Positions 12,256-15,171 of a stretch of DNA of 35,769 nucleotides are shown here, piece after piece (within the stretch, counting starts at the first letter, position 1; the number at the start of each line of letters is the position of its first letter). Below the pieces are notes generated by a model, which saw only the letters and a list, made by a program, of their open reading frames with translations, was not told where the DNA came from and made no database searches. The position numbers and the translations under genes are program-made. The stretch is from a candidate division WWE3 bacterium RIFCSPLOWO2_01_FULL_39_13 (GTDB lineage: Bacteria > Patescibacteriota > WWE3 > 2-01-FULL-39-13): positions 41,107 through 76,875 of the forward strand of contig MEVH01000007.1 in assembly GCA_001772665.1 (NCBI GenBank), given 5' to 3'.

Positions 12256-12864
12256 ATGTTGTTTGATACTTTTTTGAGCAATCCTGTTGCTGGGGTTGTT
12301 GTCCTTGCTTCAATAATCGGAGCAATATCAGTACATGAAGCTTCGCACGCTTTTGCTGCGGTCAAACTTGGAGATTCTACTCCGAAATTGCAGGGGCGCT
12401 TGACGTTAAATCCTCTCAGGCATCTTGATCCTTTGGGGACTTTGCTTTTGATTTTTGCCGGCATAGGGTGGGGGAAGCCTGTTCAATTTAATCCTTACAA
12501 TCTAAAGCATCCGCGCAGGGATTCGGGTCTGATAGCATTTGCCGGACCCGCTTCGAATATTGTTATGGCTGTTGTTGTGGCTGTTGTTGCGAGAATACTG
12601 CCAATACAATCTATCCTTATTTTGACTGTAGTCCAGTATTTCGTCGCGATAAATCTGGTTTTGGCAGTGTTTAATCTTCTGCCGATAGAGCCATTGGATG
12701 GCTTTAAAATTGTCTCGGGAGTACTTCCATCCTATTTAGTCCATAAATGGGAGGAAACCCGCCGGTACGGCATTTTTATTCTTATAATCCTATTAATCAC
12801 CGGGGCATTCAGCAGGATAGTCAGACCTGTTGTTGACACCGCCTTAAGGCTTCTTCTGCCTTAG
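12256..12864 (+). CDS. Site-2 protease family (M50) membrane metalloprotease
   Basis: HEASH zinc motif, 'GRLTLNPLRHLDPLGTLLL', 'NLLPIEPLDG'. Confidence 0.88.
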   Translation: MLFDTFLSNPVAGVVVLASIIGAISVHEASHAFAAVKLGDSTPKLQGRLTLNPLRHLDPLGTLLLIFAGIGWGKPVQFNPYNLKHPRRDSGLIAFAGPASNIVMAVVVAVVARILPIQSILILTVVQYFVAINLVLAVFNLLPIEPLDGFKIVSGVLPSYLVHKWEETRRYGIFILIILLITGAFSRIVRPVVDTALRLLLP

Positions 12865-12938
12865 TACTCTGCATGCTAAAATTATGAGGATTTTAATGAG
12901 CTGACTGTCTCCTTAATTCCAGGGGGAAAGTTGAATTG

Positions 12939-13015
12939 GCCTCCTTAGCTCAGATGGTTAGAGCGCGTCCATGGTAAGGACGAGGTCTTCGGTTCAATTC
13001 CGAAAGGAGGCTCCA
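12939..13015 (+). tRNA. tRNA-Thr (GGT), CCA encoded
   Basis: Acceptor gcctcct/aggaggc, anticodon stem cgtcc-atGGTaa-ggacg, T-arm ggttcaattcc, CCA end. Confidence 0.93.
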
Positions 13016-13021
13016 GATTCT

Positions 13022-13097
13022 GCTAGCGTAGCTCAGTTGGTAGAGCAGCTGTTTTGTAAACAGCAGGTCGTCGGTTCGAATCCGACCGCTAGCTCCA
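13022..13097 (+). tRNA. tRNA-Thr (TGT), CCA encoded
   Basis: Acceptor gctagcg/cgctagc, anticodon stem gctgt-ttTGTaa-acagc, T-arm cggttcgaatccg, CCA end. Confidence 0.94.
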
Positions 13098-13131
13098 GAT
13101 TTTTTCTAGTCCCATAGGAACGGCCTTTTTA

Positions 13132-13159
13132 TTGACAAAATATGTCATGAATGTAAAAT
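13132..13159 (+). promoter_or_regulatory. Sigma70-type promoter: TTGACA - 16 bp - TAAAAT
   Basis: TTGACA at 13132-13137 and TAAAAT at 13154-13159. Confidence 0.7.
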
Positions 13160-13164
13160 AAAAA

Positions 13165-13377
13165 TTGTGATGACAGTCACAAACCTGCAGTGCTCGTATA
13201 TCAATATAAGCGATCACTACAGATGCTTATTGCGGGTGTCTTGAGTTGCCGTGCGAACGTGTTTGCACAGCACAGAGACTTGCCCAGGTTGACGCAACGT
13301 GGTCGACTTCTGAGTGTACGGCACAGCGGGTGGTATTATGATTGCTTTGATAAAGTCCCTGTTATGGGGACTTTTTT
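13165..13377 (+). ncRNA. Candidate structured non-coding RNA with own promoter and terminator
   Basis: Hairpins 13165-13182, 13203-13231, 13251-13268 and 13288-13307; long-range pairing of CTGcagTGCtCGTA (13185-13198) with TACGGCACAG (13317-13326); intrinsic terminator at the end; no credible ORF. Confidence 0.6.
13353..13377 (+). terminator. Rho-independent terminator
   Basis: AAGTCCC-tgttatg-GGGACTT followed by a T run. Confidence 0.8.
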
Positions 13378-13483
13378 CGGCTTATCGGGGATATCAAACT
13401 CCAGGTCTGTGTTTTGGACTGCGAATGATCCCTGCTTGTGCTAAAATACTCTATGTCTTTGGGTAATTATTGAAATTAGAATT

Positions 13484-13657
13484 ATGGCAAAAAAAGGGAA
13501 ACGCCAGCTTCTGCTTTTTGTCTGCCCCGAATGCAAGCATCAGAATTATATTTCTGAAAAAAGCAAAATTAACACCACCGATAAAGTGTCCCTTAAGAAA
13601 TACTGCAAGTGGTGTAGAAAGCGCACCGTGCATAAAGAATCTACGAGGTTGAAATAA
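13484..13657 (+). CDS. rpmG: 50S ribosomal protein bL33 (57 aa, absent from the ORF track)
   Basis: Translation MAKKGKRQLLLFVCPECKHQNYISEKSKINTTDKVSLKKYCKWCRKRTVHKESTRLK*; zinc-binding CxxC pairs. Confidence 0.92.
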   Translation: MAKKGKRQLLLFVCPECKHQNYISEKSKINTTDKVSLKKYCKWCRKRTVHKESTRLK

Positions 13658-13780
13658 TCTTTTCGAGCGCTGTCTGCTAAATGCTCCATATATATGCTCC
13701 GTCTAGGGTTATTATGAGGTTCTGGCTCAAGAATGAGCATATGGATATTGAGCTGAAGTTTAAGTACAATATTCCTGCAT

Positions 13781-13855
13781 AGGCCTGTGGTGAAATTGGT
13801 ATCACGGCGGTCTCCAAAACCGCTATTCTGGGTTCGAGTCCCAGCAGGCCTGCCA
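13781..13855 (+). tRNA. tRNA-Trp (CCA), CCA encoded
   Basis: Acceptor aggcctg/caggcct, anticodon stem gcggt-ctCCAaa-accgc, T-arm ctgggttcgagtcccag, gCCA end. Confidence 0.94.
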
Positions 13856-13942
13856 GAAGAGAAGTCTCCAGTCGCCTTCGGCGACCGAGTCCCAGCAGGC
13901 CTGCCAGAAGAGAAGTCTCCAGTCGCCTTCGGCGACCGAGTC
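13836..13942 (+). repeat. 51-bp tandem duplication including the 3' end of tRNA-Trp
   Basis: 'gagtcccagcaggcctgccagaagagaagtctccagtcgccttcggcgacc' at 13836-13886 and 13887-13937, then 'gagtc'. Confidence 0.92.
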
Positions 13943-14186
13943 AAACGGGAGCTTTCAAATTCTTATCCCAATTTAATGAAATCGTTTTAACACCGTCATT
14001 AAATAGCGCTTAAACGACGGAAATATTCGACGCATCCTATATGAAGTAATAAAGTATTGACATCTTGCGCATATAGGCCATAGTTTTGATTAAGGTTGTG
14101 GATTGTCACTCCCTTGACCTGTCCTTTAATTGCGGTTTTTTAGATACAAGGTCTAAGGAACTGTTTTAAATAGGTGGTGATGGTTG

Positions 14187-14237
14187 ATGCCAGCAAAAAA
14201 GAAAGCAAAGAAAGCTAAGAAGAAAGGGAAGAAATAA
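14187..14237 (+). CDS. 16-aa lysine-rich micro-ORF (MPAKKKAKKAKKKGKK)
   Basis: ATG preceded by a purine-rich aggtggtgatgg stretch; TAA at 14235; strong terminator 32 nt downstream. Confidence 0.5.
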   Translation: MPAKKKAKKAKKKGKK

Positions 14238-14268
14238 CTTTATGAAAGCTAGCTTTGATGAAAAATGA

Positions 14269-14299
14269 AGCGGCTGGGACAATACCAGTCGCTTTTTTT
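14269..14299 (+). terminator. Rho-independent terminator
   Basis: AGCGGCTGG-gacaata-CCAGTCGCT (9 bp, one G-U) followed by T7. Confidence 0.85.
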
Positions 14300-14487
14300 A
14301 TGACTGATAGTCGGTAGTCATGGGGAATCTATTGAATCTATTTTGCGAGGCCTTAGACCAAATTAACCTGCTTCATTAAACTGAATCTCTATATTAAAGG
14401 CCGATTTTCAAATAGTGTTAATTATTAGGATATTATCCTGTTTCGCTTTGTTCATTTTCTTGTCAGAGTTTTGTAATTTATTTAGTA

Positions 14488-14493
14488 TATAAT
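14488..14493 (+). promoter_or_regulatory. -10 TATAAT, 6 nt before ATG of the response regulator
   Basis: tagtaTATAATaaaaacATGaag. Confidence 0.6.
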
Positions 14494-14499
14494 AAAAAC

Positions 14500-15171
14500 A
14501 TGAAGGCGTTGATCATAGATCATGATCCCAGAACCAGAAAGGCCTTGACCCGGATCCTTAAAGACGACTATATAGTTGATGCTGCCTCATCTGCTGCTGC
14601 TGCCGAGCAGCTTATAATTAACTCTTCTTACGATATTATCCTTTTAGATCTTATACTCCCAGATATGGATGGAGAGGATTTGTGCAGTCTTCTAAAAGCA
14701 AGGCTTAAGACTGTTCCCGTTGTAGTAATCACTGACAAGTCAGCTGTGTCAGACAAAGGAGATGCTTTCGAACACGGAGCAGATGACTATCTTGTAAAGC
14801 CTTTCAGTACGCTAGAGCTTAAGGCCCGCATGAGGGCGCTCCTGAGACGTTCTTACAACAGCAGCAATGGATATCTCGAGAATATTCAAATCAGAAATCT
14901 GCATCTTGACCGCAACAGACGCATTGCGGCTCATAAAGGTGTGAGGCTCACTCTGCGGAAAAAAGAGCTGCAGCTTCTTGAGTTCTTGCTATTAAATAGA
15001 GGGAGAGTTCTGACACGCGGTGAAATTCTAGAAAATGTTTGGGATACCGCAACAAGTCCATTTACCAATACAGTTGATGTCCATATTAAACGCTTAAGGG
15101 ATAAAATAGAAAAGCCCTTTAATGAAAGCTATATCGAGACAATTCACGGGATAGGATATCTGGTTGAGTAG
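14500..15171 (+). CDS. OmpR/PhoB-family response regulator (orphan)
   Basis: Receiver 'DIILLDLILPDMDGEDLCSLL...VVVITDKS...GADDYLVKPFSTLELKARMRALLRR' plus C-terminal winged helix 'RGEILENVWDTATSPFTNTVDVHIKRLRDKI'. Confidence 0.93.
   Translation: MKALIIDHDPRTRKALTRILKDDYIVDAASSAAAAEQLIINSSYDIILLDLILPDMDGEDLCSLLKARLKTVPVVVITDKSAVSDKGDAFEHGADDYLVKPFSTLELKARMRALLRRSYNSSNGYLENIQIRNLHLDRNRRIAAHKGVRLTLRKKELQLLEFLLLNRGRVLTRGEILENVWDTATSPFTNTVDVHIKRLRDKIEKPFNESYIETIHGIGYLVE

Follow-up and report, generated by a model that had tools for sequence, protein, structure and literature searches.

The RNA encoded at positions 13165–13377 (+) of the 35,769-nt stretch of candidate division WWE3 DNA analysed here (the window) is very probably a divergent 6S (SsrS) RNA from a bacterium of the Patescibacteria/CPR, and would by analogy act as an RNAP-binding promoter mimic with pRNA-driven release. 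6S RNA, a global brake on transcription, is a small RNA that holds RNA polymerase by mimicking an open promoter. The identification is based on homology, gene order, covariation and two competing folds, all of them computed. The first-pass annotation of this DNA had offered a divergent 6S RNA or a new class, and had remarked that a match to a known housekeeping RNA would solve the identity at the cost of the novelty. Relatives, synteny and covariation support the divergent 6S RNA, and by that standard the question of identity is settled and little of the novelty is left: the RNA is a known kind of RNA, in the form of a divergent member that standard searches miss.

The gene order in the window is an M50 gene, two tRNA-Thr genes, the RNA, rpmG and tRNA-Trp. 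The upstream neighbour is an M50 (site-2 protease family) gene (12256–12864, +; Pfam PF02163, E 1.1e-12) whose protein has its best named match in candidate division WWE3, and the downstream neighbour, rpmG (ribosomal protein L33; 13484–13657, +; PF00471, E 3.3e-16), is found at the same place downstream of the RNA in relatives. The promoter scan recovered the previously reported sigma-70-type promoter in its reported place (13132–13159, +), with TTGACA at 13132–13137, a 16-nt spacer and TAAAAT at 13154–13159; it matches the consensus at 11 of 12 positions and is the top-ranked promoter-like site within 12860–14500. At the other end, an intrinsic terminator was read from the sequence (AAGTCCC-TGTTATG-GGGACTT plus T run, 13353–13377, +). 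The hairpin of the earlier description stands (13353–13373), but not its six T residues after the stem: the run is six in all (13372–13377) and two of these also pair in the stem, which is probably why our terminator scan did not list this site. Given these promoter and terminator sequences, the 6S-like RNA would be expressed as a transcript with putative ends at 13165 and 13377, an interval that accords with the matches of two models, R3 and R2 (see below). As had been noted before, there is no credible reading frame: the ORF scan gave no convincing ORF across 13165–13377, only short frames with GTG or TTG starts, the longest of which (84 aa) passes through the terminator.

At gathering thresholds, Rfam reported only tRNAs in the window; at E <= 10 there was nothing meaningful at the RNA and no 6S score for the window copy, and a search of the source genome (0.8 Mb, 31 contigs, 93% complete) with the 6S model RF00013 returned no match. 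The all-Rfam comparison suggested in the first-pass annotation therefore gave no clean match for the window copy. Its identity as a divergent 6S RNA was nevertheless reached, and the proposed homology is carried by a chain of models rather than by a direct match. Each of the family's four other genomes has a relative of the RNA upstream of rpmG, and these relatives share with it the promoter type, the fold and common motifs along the whole RNA. TTGACA and −10-like hexamers precede the relatives at L004, L006 and L007; a terminator-like hairpin was seen in the relative of genome G002, and no clear terminator was seen after those of G003 and G004. The relative of G004 (L034), the only family member to approach the RF00013 cut-off, matched the model from end to end and scored 46.2 bits (E 1.6e-6 in 25 kb), 0.2 bits short of the curated cut-off of 46.4 bits, which is a detection rule and not a property of the RNA. 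In this alignment L034 carries the residues of the 6S consensus: CCUGC..UG.(U)CGU paired with ACGGCA..GCGGG, as well as GGG...ACCCACC.

Model R3, built from the four relatives with the window copy excluded, found the window copy at 81.0 bits (E 7e-24, 13165–13333) and no second match. Model R2, built from 14 RF00013 matches of the phylum, none from the window's family, ranked the RNA first in an unfiltered search of the window (18.0 bits, E 0.012 over the window, 13177–13338; next best 8.6). The same model found the relatives L034, L033 and L037 at 43.4, 36.4 and 24.9 bits, respectively, and a genome of the same order (G005) at 55.9 bits. R3 and R2 meet at L041/L042, where R3 matched 1501–1579 and R2 about 1448–1613 with about 90 bits. 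Under stricter filters, R2 matched 8 of 45 genomes of the class and missed the window copy. Model R1 does not recognise most 6S matches of the phylum and so could not by itself have named the RNA. A partial R1 match in G015 (L038), which pairs poorly and lacks all of the expected neighbours, was judged to be a chance match, as was a match in G056 (L043) that comprised the closing stem alone. BLAST-level DNA searches of 57 relatives, and a DNA search of phage records, gave nothing useful.

The RNA (214 nt as folded) reached −82.0 kcal/mol versus −61.0 ± 4.4 for 200 dinucleotide shuffles (z −4.73; 0 of 200), which bears out the earlier proposal of a structured RNA. By fold and covariation it forms a rod of about 200 nt with a closing stem, a central bubble and an apical arm, and the leader hairpin (TTGTGA/TCACAA), the long-range closing stem and the internal hairpins that had been described before (GTGCGAA-CGTG-TTTGCAC, 13251–13268; GTTGAC/GTCGAC, 13288–13307) are all present on the + strand. 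The 5' leader hairpin TTGTGAT-GACA-GTCACAA (13165–13182) has seven pairs, two of them changed on both sides, and is 91% paired in five genomes; its sequence is changed and its pairing kept in the four relatives. In the closing stem, CCTGC-a-GTGC-t-CGTATA (13184–13200), which contains the 6S-type motif CUGC..UG.UCGU, pairs with TGTACG-GCAC-a-GCGGG (13315–13330), which contains the 6S-type ACGGCA..GCGG, and 7 of the 15 pairs are changed on both sides. The apical arm GGGTGTCT...AGACttGCCC (13234–13285, with an upper hairpin at 13251–13268) has 6 of 8 pairs changed on both sides and aligns to the 6S element GGG...CACCCACC.

The central bubble can be folded in two ways. In fold A, a downstream duplex joins its strands, with AAGCGATCAC (13208–13217, +) pairing with GTGGTCG-a-CTT (13299–13309, +); this duplex has ten pairs (four changed on both sides) and one bulge, forms in all five copies, and corresponds to the bubble-strand helix of the Rfam 6S consensus. 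The G002 row of fold A was fitted with one base omitted, and has nine pairs in the real sequence. In fold B, each strand closes on itself: the 5' central-bubble hairpin ATAAGC/GCTTAT (13206–13230, +) has six pairs, four changed on both sides, is 97% paired and holds a conserved ACA in its loop, and the 3' central-bubble hairpin GTTGA/TCGAC (13288–13307, +) has five pairs, two changed on both sides, and is 100% paired. The fold A duplex is incompatible with the stem of either hairpin, and the forced folds differ by only 0–2.7 kcal/mol in all five copies. Computationally, the downstream duplex proved exchangeable for the 3'-bubble hairpin, with compensatory changes in each helix. Across the five copies, fold B together with the loop-loop pairing had 23 of 45 pairs changed on both sides, and fold A 19 of 40, values that were as high in none of 500 shuffles in each case; 93.8% of the cells of the fold B alignment were paired, versus 35–43% when it was slid. 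The covariation that the first-pass annotation had wanted sought in homologous intergenic regions is strong in these five copies, although the alignments were hand-guided (N padding, with a few G001 spacer bases and one G002 base omitted), which biases the pair counts towards structure. Among 28 other 6S matches of the phylum and the class, bubble strands paired with their own partners at −19.9 kcal/mol versus −12.6 kcal/mol when swapped (0 of 5000 permutations).

As modelled, this two-fold central bubble is built like the known 6S/pRNA release switch. In the described 6S cycle, pRNA synthesis unwinds the downstream duplex, other helices form and the polymerase is released (PMC8876501). The RNA studied here would be transcribed from its own sigma-70-type promoter and, by analogy with 6S RNA, would bind the primary-sigma RNAP holoenzyme as an open-promoter mimic, with the central bubble lying between the closing stem plus downstream duplex and the apical arm. 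A rise in NTP levels would lead the polymerase to transcribe a short pRNA, for which the 5' bubble strand would serve as the template. The predicted start, placed solely by its position relative to the duplex and the alignment, is about 13218–13220, probably within the loop of the 5'-bubble hairpin, and the pRNA would read back through GAUCAC and AAGC. Its synthesis would break the downstream duplex; the freed 3' strand could then snap into the 3'-bubble hairpin while the freed 5' strand is held by the pRNA or by the 5'-bubble hairpin, and the polymerase would be released. Binding, pRNA synthesis and release are all proposed here from the analogy with 6S RNA. TCAC/GTGG was first read as a kissing loop, and extending it gave the ten-pair duplex that matches the Rfam 6S consensus, a simpler reading. 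A variant 6S RNA, in which the 5' ATAAGC/GCTTAT and 3' GTTGA/TCGAC hairpins jointly replace the downstream duplex, possibly joined by TCAC (13214–13217) with GTGG (13299–13302), is conceivable, though we regard it as doubtful. Such an RNA would switch between two states even in the absence of pRNA, and when free might toggle between polymerase-binding and non-binding forms.

The RNA resembles 6S/SsrS (RF00013) in its length, its own sigma-70-type promoter, the two closing-stem motifs, the downstream duplex between the bubble strands, the apical arm opened by GGG..CCCA, and a 3'-bubble hairpin some of whose bases also belong to the downstream duplex. It departs from RF00013 in that the window copy falls below Rfam detection, in having an AAGC-type downstream duplex where the consensus has CCcCuGAgCC/GGuUCaAggg, and in its additional 5' leader hairpin and conserved 5'-bubble hairpin. 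The predicted opening of a P2-type downstream duplex by pRNA synthesis, and the 3'-bubble hairpin, are shared with described 6S release switches, including that of E. coli (PMC8876501). A 5'-bubble hairpin was only weakly predicted for B. subtilis 6S-1 RNA and was not confirmed by probing, and 14 Firmicutes RNAs of the 6S-1 type give a consensus whose 5' strand is open (PMC8876501); the hairpin found here is, in contrast, a six-pair stem with compensatory changes. Together with the leader hairpin it may represent a lineage variant, a tentative reading because only about four distinct lineages are represented.

These same two hairpins, which are absent from the RF00013 consensus, together with the lack of an Rfam match for the window copy, would fit a new class of structured RNA that is unrelated to 6S RNA and has its long closing stem and locus by chance. 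We consider this unlikely, since the close relative L034 matches RF00013 over its full length near the threshold, the independent model R2 settles on this position in the window as well as in three relatives, and the gene neighbourhood is that of other 6S matches. Every one of the five family members has the RNA immediately before rpmG, in G003 and G004 separated from the start codon by only about 60 nt, which could instead point to a cis-acting rpmG leader (ribosomal protein autoregulation or a riboswitch) rather than a free RNA; this is very improbable, given that the RNA in the window has its own terminator before rpmG, that a terminator-like hairpin also occurs in G002, and that the related RNAs of other families (L039–L042) follow an M50 gene and are not beside rpmG.

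Least probable of all are two assignments to other known RNAs. Ms1 is a 6S-like RNA of Actinobacteria that binds core RNAP without the primary sigma factor (PMC9130861), and the present RNA shares its 6S-like shape, RNAP binding being Ms1's known property; because Ms1 is structurally related to 6S RNA, the fold alone cannot separate an Ms1-type RNA that binds the core enzyme from one that binds the holoenzyme. However, Ms1 has different gene neighbours and was described from Actinobacteria (PMC9130861), and the sequence motifs found here align to RF00013, so that an Ms1-type RNA is scarcely credible. Equally little credit is given to a signal recognition particle (SRP) RNA, for which the slot is open in the source genome, as RF00169 finds no small SRP RNA in this 93% complete assembly; yet no SRP match was obtained at the RNA at E <= 10, and a relative scores as 6S. 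Earlier inspection had failed to match the RNA to SRP RNA, RNase P RNA or tmRNA, and our searches agree. RNase P RNA (RF00010) was located on contig C22 of the source genome (E 1e-20, 66.9 bits versus a cut-off of 100) and tmRNA (RF00023) on contig C4 (E 2e-36), neither gave a covariance-model match at 13165–13377, and the RNA is therefore neither of them. The housekeeping RNAs of this genome look divergent in general.

The reading as a divergent 6S RNA is also consistent with the gene neighbourhood of 6S RNA in the phylum. RF00013 matched 30 of 380 sampled phylum genomes, four above the cut-off and none in the window's family, and by this model alone the small-genome bacteria of the phylum would seem mostly to lack 6S RNA. 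An M50 gene lies within about 1.5 kb of 20 of the 30 RF00013 loci, 19 times upstream on the same strand, with the orientation read from coordinates, and 6S RNA is recurrently found just downstream of a same-strand M50 gene (L044–L073, L154, L159 and L161). The RNAs in L039–L042 all lie directly downstream of an M50 gene as well, and G050 repeats the order M50, 6S, tRNA, rpmG and tRNA-Trp, except that its tRNAs (Thr, Tyr, Thr) stand between 6S and rpmG whereas the two tRNA-Thr genes of the window precede the RNA. Since relatives were found by synteny and lineage models, part of the apparent absence of 6S RNA is a failure of detection. The M50-6S gene order offers a practical handle for finding the remaining copies, and the two-fold anatomy makes it possible to test the 6S release switch in a distant lineage. 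Our literature search found no paper on 6S RNA in CPR bacteria.

At two of the other 6S loci, L046 and L047 (1501 to about 1655, −), the bubble of the RNA is almost closed by a long downstream duplex, UCAUGCAAACC with GGUUUGUGCAUGA. Two tandem repeats were also seen in the window. A perfect 51-bp tandem duplication of 2.1 copies (13835–13942) is a copy of the tRNA-Trp 3' end together with the bases that follow it, and a 444-bp tandem repeat of 2.5 copies with 98% matching (319–1425), within a 925-aa ORF (37–2814), seems to have arisen by recent in-frame duplication within a repetitive protein.
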